Source: Adineta ricciae
Taxonomy: Eukaryota > Rotifera > Eurotatoria > Adinetida > Adinetidae
DNA length: 64,000 bases
Direction of reading: 5' to 3'
Assembly: GCA_905250025.1 (NCBI GenBank)
Contig: CAJNOJ010000065.1
Span: forward strand, 186,001-250,000
Positions 43,344 to 55,975 of this stretch are shown here, piece after piece. The position numbers and the translations under genes were made by a program. A model generated the notes under the pieces. It was not told the origin of the DNA. It ran no database searches and saw only the letters and a list, made by a program, of their open reading frames with translations. Within the stretch, counting starts at the first letter, position 1; the number at the start of each line of letters is the position of its first letter.

Positions 43344-45653
43344 ATGTTGAAAATACTATTTAATAATCGATATTTGAAGCCGATTTATCTGATCAGATCG
43401 TACCATAATTTGAGTATCGAAATGAAAAAACTCAATGACATGAAGCAATTCAAAAGATCTTTAGAATTGTTTCGCGAATGTGAACAAACAAAACATGATA
43501 TGATTACAGATCTAGCTGTTGGCCAAGCACTGAAATCGTGTGCTAACATAAAAGATTTTCAAGCTGGCTCCCGTATACATCACCGATATGCATCATTAAT
43601 AGAAAAAAACAACTATTCAATGGGATCTCTGATCGATTTTTATAGTAAATAATAGATGATTGTCGAATAAGAACGTCTTTCATTTCGTATTTAGTGCAAT
43701 CAAAAGATGTTGATAATGCTCAGTTGCTCTTTGACAAACTGAAGAAGAAAACAGTTGCTATTTACAGTATAATGATGAAAGGTAACTTGTTCTTGTTATT
43801 TTCATTTAATCACATTATGGGTTCTTGAATCGAAGGATATATTCGCAACAATCAGGCACAAAAAGCAATTGAAATTTTCTTCCAAATACCTAATACAGAT
43901 GAGAAAAGTGTTTCATTGTTTTTTCATGCATGCTCACAAGTTCCAAACGAAAAAACATTAGAATTAGTGAAGAAAGTTTTTTCTAACCTTCCCGATCGTT
44001 ACCAAAATAACGAATATATTCTGACAAATGTTTTTAATGTCTTCATCAAATGCAATGATCTATCAAACGCTGAGAAAATTTTTCCTAAAATTGCCACCAA
44101 TGCGCTTAGTTATGGAAATTTTATGAATGCATTGAATAAAAACAATCAACCTGTGAAAACATTAAGCTTATTTGAAGAAATGACAAGAAAATGTATCAAA
44201 TTGGATGCAACGGTTTCTCTTTTCTTACTCAATGCGTGTGCTGCCATTGGAATTTATACAGTATCTCAATCGATATTCGAAGAAATCCCGAAATCATGTC
44301 TGAACGATGTTTATATAAAAAATGCATTGATTGATATGTGGGTAAGAGCACATTCATTAATGAAGCCACAATGAAAGAGAATCAAATATATTTTGAATTG
44401 CGTAGGGAAAATCGGGTTGTATTGGCAAAGCAAAGAATACATTCGAATCTTTGAGTCAACCGGAAACAGTTGGATATACATCAATGAGTTTGTTAAAGTT
44501 ATTCTCCTGAACAATTAATAATATTATTATCAATAATTTCAGTTAACTCATACGGTTTGAATGGAATGGGCTTCGATGCAGTCAAGTTATTTTATCAAAT
44601 GCCAGTGAATCTTATTCGCGATGAAACTTATGTATGCGTTTTAAACGCATGTTCACATGCTGGACTTGTTGAAGAGGCTCAAAAGATATTTGCAACAGTA
44701 GAAAAGAAAACAGAAGAAATTTGCACGATTATGGTCAGAGAAATTAAATTTCGTTGTTGTTTTCATTTGAGTCAGTTTGAAATTATTTTAGGTCGATTGT
44801 TTTAGTCGCTTGTCACTTTTCACAGAAGCAAAAGAGATTATTGACACTTACGAATCGAATCATGCGCCGTCACCAGGAATGCTTAGTACGTTCGTTTATG
44901 TCGATAGAAATCTGAATTCTCTCATGGTACAGATATTTGTTCTTTCTAGTGGCGTTATTGTCTGGCGCTCGAAATGCGAAGAACTTAGATTTAGCAGAAA
45001 AAACTTTTCATCGTATCCAGAAACATTTCCCTCAACTAAAACATCGAATAGTTGCTGCGTCTGTTTTACTTGCAAATGCCGATGCATCGATAGGTCAGAT
45101 AGATAATTCATTTAATCCAAAACAAAACAATTGACTCAGTCTGGTTTGAAGAAAACAAGTGGAATTTCTTATACTGAAGTTAATGGCAAGATATATGTAA
45201 ACAATTCTACTGAGAGAACTCATTTTAAATTTATATCGATAGGTATTTCGTGCTCACGATTCATCGCATCCTCAGTCAAAGGAAATCAATCAAGAACTCA
45301 CTTCGCACGGTCATGATTACGATTCGAGTTGGATCACACGTTCGTTAAATTCAGATGAAACTATTGAATCAGTTCTGTGTGGCCACAGTGAAAGGCTCAC
45401 AATCGCTTGGAACTTTGTCGTCCATCCCAATGCATCACGAATTCAAATTACAAAAAATCTTCGTGTCTGCGGTGATTGTCGTATGCTAAAATATTTTCCT
45501 TTGAAAGCTGATCTTTTTTCTTTTTTTTAATGTATAGATCGAGCAACAAAATTGATTGCAAGTATCCGACAATGTGAAATAATTGTTCGCGACGCAAATC
45601 GTATTCATCATTTCTATCGAAATGGGCAATGCTCATGTAACGATCATTTCTAA
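43344..45653 (+). CDS. PLS-class pentatricopeptide repeat protein with E and DYW deaminase domains (plant-type RNA editing factor), probable frameshift
   Basis: Exons: 43344-43644, 43695-43781, 43836-44341, 44406-44487, 44543-44733, 44792-44885, 44950-45196, 45243-45480 and 45538-45653. The N-terminus is basic and hydrophobic ([20 protein letters not shown]), like a mitochondrial presequence. PLS-type PPR repeats follow ([78 protein letters not shown]). Then come E motifs, the PG box ([19 protein letters not shown]) and a DYW domain with SSHPQSKEI, the zinc/catalytic [18 protein letters not shown] and the ending CSCNDHF in place of CSCGDYW. DYW domains deaminate C to U in organelle RNA. The 44950-45196 exon has two bases too many (see Findings). 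Confidence 0.93.
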
Positions 45654-48121: not shown

Positions 48122-49606
48122 ATGCCTGAACTACCCGGTAAGAAAACAATCAATACGAGATAGAGTTTGAAGTGAAAGTATTCGTTGTATTGTTTTAGAA
48201 GTAGAATACGCTCGTCGATTATTGGCTCGATTTTTAACTCATACACATATTACTAAAGTTTCATATCCAGATGCTGATGGCCTGGCGAAGCGTTTCTTGA
48301 ATTGCACACCAAATTCATTTGCCGATGGATTAGTTAACCGTAAGATTTTGGATATTAAACGGCACGGTAAATATCTATGGTTTGAGATGGCTGACCAGAA
48401 ACCTTTGACACCAATCTTTCATTTTGGAATGTCTGGAGGTTTTCGAATCAAATCAGCACCTGATGTGACTTATTTGAAAGAGCTTGAACATGTGAAAAGA
48501 AAAGCGAAAAACGAAGTTGATGGACAATGCGAGTCTTTTGTTTATGGTAAATATCTGTCAGTCAGTACATGAGTGTAACACAGAGTAATTTAGATGACGA
48601 ACTAGACGCTGACTTAACATGGCCGCCTCGTTTTACACGTATTCGATTTTTGACGTCAACAGGTCACGATGTGTGCTATACAGATCTTCGTAAATTTGGA
48701 CGTTTTCATTTAATTGATTCGAACGAACCTCTTTCATGCCTTCCTTTATCAAAATTAGGCTTCGATCCTTACCTTGAAATGCCAAAACTTGATGATTTCA
48801 AAGATTTAATCAACTCGTACCGATCGAAATCCATCGAACTTAAAGCATTATTACTTGACCAAGCATTTTGTGCTGGAATTGGCAATTGGATAGCTGATGA
48901 AATACTCTATCAGTCACATTTGCATCCACGTAAACGATTGAATACATTGACGGACGATCAACTGAAGAGTTTGCACAAAAACATCGACTATGTCATTCGC
49001 ACAGCAGTTGATGCAGGTGGGAGTCATAAATTTCCACCGGAATGGCTGTTTCATTTTCGATGGACGAACAAACGGGAAACAGAAGATTATTATAAACTAA
49101 AAATTCAATTTGATACCGTCGGTGGACGAACATCAGCTTATGTACCGAAAAGACAACTCTTATCCGATGATGAACAACATCAAGTGGATGTTCGATTGGC
49201 TGCACGTGATGCCAAACGAGCCAGTAAGAAGAAAATAGCTAAAAATGATGACAATACCAGTGACGACCAGGAGAATGGTGACATGATTTTAATAAGAAAA
49301 TTTCTCATCTATACGTTACTTACTATATTTTAGAGAACTCAGTTACTGTAGTACGTTCAAAAGGGTTACGAAAAAAACGAAGTAAACAAGAAATGATCGA
49401 AAGTGGTAAAGATAGCTGCTTCTATTTCGACGAAAGCCACTAGTTTTGTTCTAGACTTCGAAGAAGAAGAAAAAGAGGAAAATGCCGAAGACGAACCAGC
49501 ACCGACCCCACCTCGAAAAAAGAAATTATCATCTGAACCTGTGGCTAATATATCGAATCGACCACAACGATCATGTAGACAGAAAACGATCAATTATCAT
49601 GTGTGA
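48122..49606 (+). CDS. Formamidopyrimidine-DNA glycosylase, plant/fungal type (Fpg/Nei family)
   Basis: Five exons: 48122-48137, 48199-48546, 48594-49277, 49334-49405 and 49455-49606, giving 423 aa. It begins MPELPEVE, so the catalytic Pro2 and Glu3 are present; exon 1 ends inside this motif. Landmarks: RHGKYLWFEM, FHFGMSGGFRI, YTDLRKFGRF, LGFDP, LLLDQAFCAGIGNWIADEIL (the helix-two-turn-helix) and HPRKRLNTL. The C-terminal zinc finger of bacterial Fpg is replaced by a Cys-free DTVGGRTSAYVPKRQ, as in plant FPG1 and fungal homologues. A charged tail follows: KKRSKQEMIES, an acidic run and TPPRKKKLSSE, probably nuclear targeting. Role: excision of oxidised purines with AP-lyase activity in base-excision repair. 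Horizontal acquisition is inferred. Confidence 0.93.
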
Positions 49607-52889: not shown

Positions 52890-53852
52890 TCATTGCTTCG
52901 ATGCTAATTCACGTTCGATTTCAAGTGCTGGTTCGACGGCTTTCAAAATTGTTTCTTGTAGCTCATCTCCTGTGGGTAAGAGTGGTGCACGTGGAAGACC
53001 ACCATAGCCCAAGACTTTCTGCATTATTGCTTTCACGGCAGAGATACCATTCAGCCGGAAAAGAGTATGATCAGGACCGATAATTCGACGTTGAATGCGT
53101 TGAATTTCTTCCCACTTATCTTGTGAATGGTTTCTGTACAAGTTAAAAAGATGAACAAGAACTCGTGGAGCAACATTTGCGAAACCAGGAACACATCCTT
53201 GTGCTCCAATTGTTAGGAACGGCACGAAACTATCAGCTGAGCCACTCATCAACGTGAACTGTTTGGAATCGGTGTGTTCACACACATAGCCAGCCTTTCC
53301 TACATTTCCATCGGTGCATTTCATACCGACAATGTTCGGGTGAGAAGCTAACTTGACGATGGTTTCTTGTGGAGTGTCCATTTGCTGTGTCACACCTGGA
53401 AAGTTGTAGATTACAACGGGAATCACAGCTTTGTCAGCAACTTTCGTATAGAAGGAGACGAGAACATCCGATCGGTTGACTGTCCAGCTAAGAAAATACG
53501 AAGGCGGTAGAACCATAGCGTATTCAGCACCTGCTTCGGCTGCTTGCTTGATGAGGTGAAGTGTGCCGCGAACTGACTCGTGTGAACAGCCAGCGATTAG
53601 TTTCGCTTTGGACGATGATTCGTCGATAGCTTTGCGTGCAGTTCGGATGACCAGTTGTCTTTCATCTTCATTGAGATGTACTGCTTCGCCTGTTGAACCC
53701 ATACAAACGACACCATGAACACCAGCTGAGCAGAGGAACTGGACGTGTCGAGCAACAGTATCGACATCGACTGGTTGTTCGTCAGCGGGTGTGTCGAGAA
53801 AGAATGTTGGAATGGGAACATAGATGCCGGGTGGAAGTGCAACTGAAGTCAT
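52890..53852 (-). CDS. Dihydrodipicolinate-synthase-family aldolase, copy A (fungal-type 2-keto-3-deoxy-acid aldolase)
   Basis: Intronless, 320 aa, a complete (beta/alpha)8 class I aldolase. The GSTGEAVHLNEDER block binds the substrate carboxylate; Tyr149 in VVIYNFPGV and the Schiff-base Lys178 in NIVGMKCTDGNVGKAG are both present. The VPIPTFF start, LPPSYF and GNVGK forms match fungal L-threo-3-deoxy-hexulosonate aldolase (GaaC/LGA1-like) proteins better than animal HOGA1 or N-acetylneuraminate lyase. The substrate is thus probably a 2-keto-3-deoxy sugar acid giving pyruvate plus an aldehyde, a route used on plant pectin. It has a tandem paralogue 2.1 kb away. The lack of introns suggests recent acquisition; horizontal origin is inferred. 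Confidence 0.93.
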   Translation of the reverse strand: MTSVALPPGIYVPIPTFFLDTPADEQPVDVDTVARHVQFLCSAGVHGVVCMGSTGEAVHLNEDERQLVIRTARKAIDESSSKAKLIAGCSHESVRGTLHLIKQAAEAGAEYAMVLPPSYFLSWTVNRSDVLVSFYTKVADKAVIPVVIYNFPGVTQQMDTPQETIVKLASHPNIVGMKCTDGNVGKAGYVCEHTDSKQFTLMSGSADSFVPFLTIGAQGCVPGFANVAPRVLVHLFNLYRNHSQDKWEEIQRIQRRIIGPDHTLFRLNGISAVKAIMQKVLGYGGLPRAPLLPTGDELQETILKAVEPALEIERELASKQ

Positions 53853-55012: not shown

Positions 55013-55975
55013 TTATGCTTTTGAAGCTAATTCACGTTCGATTTCAAGTGCTGGTTCGATGGCTTTGACAATGCTCTCTTGTTGTTCTGTTGATGTTGGC
55101 ACTAGCGGTGCACGAGGGAGACCACCATAGCCCAAGACTTTTTGCATAGTTGCCTTCAAACCGGATATTCCATTCCATCGAAAGAAAGCATGATCAGGAC
55201 CGATAATTCGACGTTGAATGCGTTGAATTTCTTCCCACTTATCTTGTGAATGGTTTCTGTACAAGTTAAAAAGATGAACAAGAACTCGTGGAGCAACATT
55301 TGCGAAACCAGGAACACATCCTTGTGCTCCAATTGTTAGGAACGGCACGAAACTATCAGCTGAGCCACTCATCAACGTGAACTGTTTGGAATCGGTGTGT
55401 TCACACACATAGCCAGCCTTTCCTACATTTCCATCGGTGCATTTCATACCGACAATGTTCGGGTGAGAAGCTAACTTGACGATGGTTTCTTGTGGAGTGT
55501 CCATTTGCTGTGTCACACCTGGAAAGTTGTAGATTACAACGGGAATCACAGCTTTGTCAGCAACTTTCGTATAGAAGGAGACGAGAACATCCGATCGGTT
55601 GACTGTCCAGCTAAGAAAATACGAAGGCGGTAGAACCATAGCGTATTCAGCACCTGCTTCGGCTGCTTGCTTGATGAGGTGAAGTGTGCCGCGAACTGAC
55701 TCGTGTGAACAGCCAGCGATTAGTTTCGCTTTGGACGATGATTCGTCGATAGCTTTGCGTGCAGTTCGGATGACCAGTTGTCTTTCATCTTCATTGAGAT
55801 GTACTGCTTCGCCTGTTGAACCCATACAAACGACACCATGAACACCAGCTGAGCAGAGGAACTGGACGTGTCGAGCAACAGTATCGACATCGACTGGTTG
55901 TTCGTCAGCGGGTGTGTCGAGAAAAAACGTTGGGATGGGAACATAGATGCCGGGTGGAAGTGCAACTGAAGTCAT
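55013..55975 (-). CDS. Dihydrodipicolinate-synthase-family aldolase, copy B (tandem paralogue)
   Basis: Intronless, 320 aa, same length as copy A without indels (constant offset of 2123 bp). Residues 1 to about 262 are identical to copy A. The last 58 differ at about 16 positions (for example AFFRWNGISGLKATM against TLFRLNGISAVKAIM, and STEQQESIVKAIEP against GDELQETILKAVEP). Catalytic Tyr149 and Lys178 are retained, so both copies should be active. Same family and inferred fungal-type origin as copy A. The upstream sequence differs, so the copies may be regulated separately. A CTTATC-rich run precedes the start (about 56065-56085). Confidence 0.93.
   Translation of the reverse strand: MTSVALPPGIYVPIPTFFLDTPADEQPVDVDTVARHVQFLCSAGVHGVVCMGSTGEAVHLNEDERQLVIRTARKAIDESSSKAKLIAGCSHESVRGTLHLIKQAAEAGAEYAMVLPPSYFLSWTVNRSDVLVSFYTKVADKAVIPVVIYNFPGVTQQMDTPQETIVKLASHPNIVGMKCTDGNVGKAGYVCEHTDSKQFTLMSGSADSFVPFLTIGAQGCVPGFANVAPRVLVHLFNLYRNHSQDKWEEIQRIQRRIIGPDHAFFRWNGISGLKATMQKVLGYGGLPRAPLVPTSTEQQESIVKAIEPALEIERELASKA

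Follow-up and report, generated by a model that had tools for sequence, protein, structure and literature searches.

A DYW-type PPR gene family in the bdelloid rotifer Adineta ricciae and predicted C-to-U editing of bdelloid mitochondrial mRNAs

The presence of a plant-type DYW PPR gene in an animal genome raises the question of whether an animal mitochondrion is edited from C to U. The gene concerned lies on the plus strand at positions 43344..45653 of the window, the 64,000-nucleotide stretch analysed here (C65:186001-250000 of an Adineta ricciae assembly of 130.46 Mb and 1033 contigs), and is interrupted by eight GT-AG introns of 46-64 bases (Table 1). Exon 1 of the public model of this gene, P0308, is 17 amino acids shorter than the ATG-started frame. 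Of two versions of a home-made splice program, the first was usable but fused upstream genes, and the retrained version invented introns, so that its use was confined to the C-terminal portion of a single query. Elsewhere in the window, positions 52890-53852 and 55013-55975 of the minus strand encode tandem, near-identical 320-residue proteins of the dihydrodipicolinate synthase family, possibly horizontally acquired, and an open frame at 48569-49333 of the plus strand encodes the H2TH domain of formamidopyrimidine-DNA glycosylases.

Table 1. Features of the window gene (window positions) and candidate editing sites in A. ricciae mtDNA (positions on contig C55)
Feature	Position	Strand	Basis or remarks
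Exon 1, presequence-like N-terminus and first repeats	43344..43644	+	ATG-started open frame; GT donor at 43645
Exon 2, PPR repeats	43695..43781	+	frame carries on across splice; P0308 identical
Exon 3, PPR repeats	43836..44341	+	splice frame, comparison with P0308, Pfam PPR
Exon 4, PPR repeats	44406..44487	+	splice frame, comparison with P0308
Exon 5, P2 and L2 repeats	44543..44733	+	splice frame, comparison with P0308, P0308 repeat parse
Exon 6, S2 repeat	44792..44885	+	splice frame, comparison with P0308, P0308 repeat parse
Exon 7 in first frame, E1 motif and start of E2	44950..45093	+	splice frame, comparison with P0308
Frame-break stretch, net 2-base insertion (about 45122) relative to C13 sister	45094..45139	+	six paralogs in frame here
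Exon 7 continued in paralog frame, rest of E2 (KKTSG) and start of E+	45140..45196	+	paralogs, P0308
Next exon, E+ and first part of DYW deaminase with HSE and CGDC	45243..45480	+	Pfam E+ and DYW
Last exon, remainder of DYW domain (split H, HHF, CSC), NDHF end and stop	45538..45653	+	profile match C65:231540-231647
Candidate site, cob S17L	C55 471045		C-to-T restores; Leu in 72/72 other bdelloids having a residue at this codon; Phe in 71% of non-bdelloids
Candidate site, cob S273F	C55 471813		C-to-T restores bdelloid residue; Phe in 64/73 bdelloids
Candidate site, cob L356F	C55 472061		C-to-T restores bdelloid residue; Phe in 73/73 bdelloids
Candidate site, cox1 L368F	C55 467334		C-to-T restores; Phe in 80% of 15 bdelloids, and in non-bdelloids
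Weaker candidate site, cox1 A371V	C55 467344		Ala in 18/18 bdelloids (GCT in A. ricciae), Val in 103 non-bdelloids; HFHYVLSM motif

The window gene was scanned against Pfam as two pieces, one on each side of a break in its reading frame. The piece before the break matched the PPR profile (E 2.1e-30) and the piece after it matched the E+ motif (E 6.5e-6) and the DYW deaminase (E 1.6e-30, profile positions 1-92 of 93), bearing out an earlier note on this DNA which had proposed a plant-type DYW-PPR gene here in an animal genome. The PLS repeats that it described were recovered both by the Pfam PPR match and by a home-made parse of P0308 into 11 motifs whose P-L-S order was imposed by the parser; in this parse the fifth residue of P1 repeats was mostly Gly and the PPR code partly unusual. 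The presequence-like N-terminus was likewise present, as was a DYW-like end consisting of a CSC motif and a terminal NDHF, so that the C-terminal tripeptide is DHF rather than DYW. The HSE and CGDCH motifs were both found, although the latter is not contiguous, its histidine codon being split by the last intron (C and AT). In contrast, the PG box listed in the same note is missing from the window copy, where that position reads KKTSG; the copies on contigs C131 and C322 read KKKPG. The catalytic HxE, the zinc ligands CxxC and the second site HHF/CxC of the window gene align with the DYW domain of At3g63370 (OTP86), and alignment to the solved structure of this plant domain (PDB 7o4e) spans HSE, CxDCH, HHF and CSC (E 5.2e-29).

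The solved DYW domains matched by the gene come from a plant or a synthetic PPR-DYW protein, as would be expected if the assembly were contaminated by plant or protist DNA. Against such contamination, which is very unlikely and indeed close to negligible in probability, stand the eight short GT-AG introns, a 7TM receptor gene within the same window, the occurrence of 81 DYW loci in the genome and the bdelloid names of nearly all listed homologues (see below).

The reading frame of the window copy is damaged. Over 2056 aligned bases it shares 95.7% identity with a sister copy located where contig C13 ends; relative to this sister, the window copy carries a net 2-base insertion in the E2 motif that breaks the frame, and lacks 21 bases at 45282. 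In six paralogs E2 is read without the shift in frame seen in the window gene. Both lesions suggest simply a pseudogene with no present function, a reading that we favour with moderate confidence and that is compatible with the family-level explanation given below. Arguing for retained function are a dN/dS between window and sister copy of 0.34 (496 codons), the openness of the remaining exons, and P0308, which would fit a longer intron (45094-45179) bridging the break and restoring an open frame at the cost of part of E2/E+; it is also possible that the frame break is an assembly error. The window copy is therefore probably decaying, or producing a protein with shortened E2: it is a recently damaged family member, or one rescued by the longer intron, whose C13 sister has neither lesion. 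In P0264, the sister protein, the frame stays open across E2 and DYW, with its start cut off by the contig end; together with P0241 it exemplifies annotated family members with an open frame from PPR to DYW.

Rather than an isolated gene, as the earlier note had it, the window gene is one member of a large family. A DYW profile search of the genome gave 127 matches which, when matches on the same strand separated by gaps under 400 bases were merged, represented 81 loci on 48 contigs. Sixty loci span the domain, 18 in one piece and 42 in more than one piece, as a conserved intron would give, and arrays of loci were present on contigs C170 (six), C461 (five), C311 (four) and C322 (four). The same profile had zero matches in 14 control genomes, those identified being prokaryotes. 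One divergent copy (L003, C45:186429-186701, minus strand) matched the profile in one piece with no stops and is perhaps a separate acquisition. Homologues were sought with the DYW region of a paralog (locus L019) rather than of the window gene, and 119 of the 120 listed (of 891 found) carry bdelloid names as we read them (Adineta, Rotaria, Didymodactylos), the other being from a plant. HSE[RK] was retained in 118 of the 120 listed homologues and HSE[RK], CxDCH and CxC together in 100; 63 of the 120 ended in DYF and 47 in DHF. Two annotated proteins combine DYW with other domains, P0349 of Rotaria magnacalcarata (caspase and ADP-ribosyltransferase) and P0252 of A. ricciae (labelled an OTU protein), and in both the gene model may be fused.

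By a crude rule (at least four basic and at most one acidic residue), a mitochondrial-like N-terminus was present in 33 of the 114 listed homologues starting with Met, compared with 148 of 2317 windows starting at internal Met residues. Taken with the mtDNA pattern described below, this test suggests that the bdelloid DYW-PPR family is probably directed to mitochondria. The mitochondrial role that the earlier note considered plausible is in this way supported for the family, but not for the window copy, because its frame is broken.

Contig C55 terminates in the mitochondrial genome of A. ricciae (464485-478188, 13704 bases; loci L011 and L012, 464484-478188). Both ends of this mtDNA carry identical sequence, as expected of a circle cut open, and it adjoins nuclear sequence of C55 through a single N, a junction that is most likely an assembly join rather than an insertion. 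It contains 12 open protein genes. Matches to solved chains confirmed seven of them (cox1, cob, nad5, cox2, cox3, nad1 and nad4), and the other five were named from location and likeness; the order from nad6 to cox2 matches the Rotaria rotatoria table in the part of PMC2784805 available. The composition is 46.7% T and 6.5% C, with C at only 1.4% of third codon positions in ten genes. Viral contigs searched for bdelloid mtDNA gave no match.

The cob and cox1 genes were compared at the protein level with sequences that, for bdelloids, were nearly all metagenome proteins. The cob search listed 120 proteins, 85 treated as bdelloid and 35 as non-bdelloid; seven of the bdelloid entries are labelled by species (A. 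vaga, Habrotrocha, Macrotrachela, Philodina, Rotaria) and the others are 58-89% identical where aligned. The cox1 search provided 17 bdelloid proteins, one of them labelled by species, and 103 non-bdelloid proteins. Within the conserved cob motif PEWYFLFAY, F is replaced by S, L by S or P, and Y by H in bdelloid sequences, and W is replaced by R in one among the most divergent. In a looser set, deviations were scored at columns where conservation among non-bdelloids reached at least 95% and where no fewer than 75% of bdelloids had that same residue, dropping S-to-R and M-to-I as wrong-code translation. Deviations explicable only by T-to-C made up 17 of 58 distinct deviations in cob (74 bdelloids) compared with 0 of 38 in 35 controls, and 17 of 41 in cox1 (16 bdelloids) compared with 1 of 92 in 103 controls. 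A separate tally was kept for Phe-to-Leu, a change open to both T-to-C and transversion, with 4 (cob) and 8 (cox1) bdelloid and 3 and 2 control cases.

A strict set admitted bdelloid sequences only where identity reached at least 75% and coverage at least 95% (66 cob and 15 cox1, the A. ricciae sequences included), and was confined to columns with the shared residue in at least 70% of bdelloids, control columns being at least 95% conserved in bdelloids. With cob and cox1 pooled, the T-to-C-only class made up 28 of the 70 distinct bdelloid deviations, compared with 0 of 102 in non-bdelloids (Fisher p 2e-13, to be read as indicative, since distinct events are not fully independent). The remaining bdelloid deviations comprised 21 transversions, 11 Phe-to-Leu (compared with 4 in non-bdelloids), 2 multi-step changes and 8 other transitions, and the mirror class, A-to-G, accounted for 4 events in bdelloids in either set. 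The T-to-C class consists of radical replacements (W to R, F or L to S, Y to H) whereas the rest are mostly conservative (V/I, Y/F, L/I). The comparison of sequences shows that, at conserved bdelloid codons, T-to-C changes which C-to-U editing could reverse are in directional excess, and this is the new point of the present analysis.

The changes recur within bdelloids. By parsimony on a single bdelloid cob tree built without codons 273, 274 and 280, the minimum number of changes among 74 sequences was 17 at codon 274 and 10 each at codons 273 and 280, and for the 66 sequences with identity of 75% or more the respective minima were 15, 9 and 8; cob 273 is Leu in 4 of 35 non-bdelloids. Five tryptophan columns of cox1 contain arginine, three in protein P0133, one in P0123 and one in P0134. 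Species-labelled sequences are also affected, with F273S and F219S in A. vaga cob and Y9H, I236T, F368L and L401S in Rotaria rotatoria cox1. At cob columns of 85% agreement, no T-to-C change was found in three Macrotrachela, one Philodina and one Habrotrocha sequence; at less conserved codons, L274S was present in one Macrotrachela and L274S with L280S in Philodina.

The preponderance of metagenome-derived sequences, and the S-to-R and M-to-I differences that resemble wrong-code translation and were dropped from the counts, would suit an artefact arising from nuclear copies of mtDNA, a wrong genetic code or non-bdelloid sequences in the set. A wrong code or decay, however, would not yield mainly T-to-C changes; the signal persists without sequences of less than 75% identity and appears as well in A. 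vaga cob, R. rotatoria cox1 and, at the DNA level, the A. ricciae mtDNA itself. We consider an artefact distinctly improbable.

The A. ricciae mtDNA offers four strong candidate editing sites, at cob codons 17, 273 and 356 and cox1 codon 368, and a fifth at cox1 371, which is fixed across the bdelloids examined (Table 1). Codon 371 may be a fixed change encoding a true Ala, or a fixed editing site. The A. ricciae cob deviates solely at the three candidate codons among columns with at least 85% agreement in bdelloids. At the 80% level further deviations occur that C-to-T cannot restore (cob 106 and 303; cox1 133 and 318), together with code-dependent M/I and S/R cases. The codon for cox1 A79 was considered and left uncounted: C-to-T there would give the bdelloid majority residue, but Ala is the residue of non-bdelloids. 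When cox2, cox3, nad1, nad4 and nad5 were inspected by eye against solved structures, no candidate site was conspicuous.

Proteins were matched to sites by means of the standard PPR code, using the 15 of 21 A. ricciae DYW proteins with at least seven parsed repeats and all 891 Cs of the mtDNA. Ranked among these Cs within its top-scoring protein, cob 356 was 2nd and cob 273 8th (both with P0336), followed by cob 17 (17th), cox1 368 (105th) and cox1 371 (192nd). When ranked by best score over the 15 proteins, the positions were 15, 92 and 179 of 891 for cob 356, 273 and 17, and 534 and 714 for cox1 368 and 371.

We infer that the Cs at such codons are edited, and edited by these DYW-PPR proteins. 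In the proposed mechanism, nuclear-encoded DYW-PPR proteins, probably directed to mitochondria, would bind sites on mitochondrial mRNAs through their P-L-S repeats, and the zinc-dependent DYW domain would deaminate one cytidine to uridine. T-to-C mutations at essential mtDNA codons would be tolerated because the mRNA is repaired, and editing sites would appear and vanish between lineages. That a mitochondrion-directed DYW-PPR family edits mitochondrial mRNAs, so permitting reversible T-to-C changes, is in our judgement the best explanation and a highly probable one. Alternatively, the DYW-PPR proteins might bind RNAs to stabilise, block or silence them with no editing, the T-to-C changes being ordinary tolerated substitutions in a fast-evolving genome. 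Consistent with this are deviations other than T-to-C, and fixed bdelloid changes at conserved columns (cox1 P80 and cob P260) that editing fails to explain. Such an origin would nevertheless have to account for a T-to-C-only class that is frequent in bdelloids and absent from non-bdelloids in the strict set, for its radical character beside otherwise mostly conservative deviations, for its accumulation in a genome whose composition drives C out, and for deaminases with all three motif sets intact in most listed homologues, and we regard it as rather unlikely. Bdelloid mitochondria thus very probably edit C to U with their DYW-PPR family. The fuller scheme, in which plant-like, protein-guided mitochondrial editing by some 80 DYW-PPR loci was probably acquired by horizontal transfer and lets otherwise damaging T-to-C changes persist at conserved codons, repeatedly at cob 273, 274 and 280, in a plant-like cycle of gain and loss of sites and editors, is held with slightly less assurance but still appears probable.

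Editing in this animal mitochondrion is very likely because of the mtDNA pattern, and is directly testable with deposited data. Mitochondrial coding sequences of A. ricciae were taken from transcriptome libraries (deposits JX183989-JX184083 and JW861079-JW861112) according to the available part of PMC3426538, in which 'editing' matches only a sequence-handling heading. The word has no match in the available text of the Rotaria mtDNA paper (PMC2784805), and the accessible portions of PMC11946409 and PMC7194472 contain nothing on rotifer editing. Rotifer DYW proteins are mentioned without editing in the part of PMC5295000 available. The literature search, outside which subscription papers including the original rotifer DYW reports mostly fell, found no report of C-to-U editing in rotifer mitochondria. 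DYW genes of A. ricciae are already known, and it is for the mtDNA half that no published report was found. If correct, this would be, as far as the search reaches, the first mitochondrial mRNA C-to-U editing by DYW-PPR proteins in an animal, and would indicate that a plant-type editing machine can be adopted and made useful in a new lineage. It would also explain the retention and expansion of DYW genes in bdelloids, imply that database entries for bdelloid mitochondrial proteins contain some mistranslated positions, and provide a small animal system in which to study the origin of editing.

The rotifer DYW genes reported earlier, from A. ricciae and Philodina roseola, are of the same kind as the window gene and in part from the same species, and the rotifer clade groups with Naegleria in the portion of PMC4202320 available. 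That text gives 12 DYW genes for Acrasis and 11 for Naegleria, with two proven sites each, and for Acrasis two of six predicted sites confirmed as edited. These protists resemble bdelloids in having a lineage-specific DYW expansion outside plants together with AT-rich mtDNA and DYW genes in excess of proven sites; their editing was proven by cDNA, whereas bdelloid editing is predicted from sequence, and the A. ricciae genome has 81 loci. Like DYW-type PLS PPR editing factors of land plants such as At3g63370, the rotifer proteins combine P-L-S repeats, E+ and a DYW domain with HSE, CxxC(H), HHF and CxC. They differ in ending in DYF or DHF (110 of 120 listed homologues) rather than DYW, in the loss of the PG box from the window copy and the mostly Gly fifth residue of P1 repeats, and in being encoded by an animal nuclear gene with short introns.
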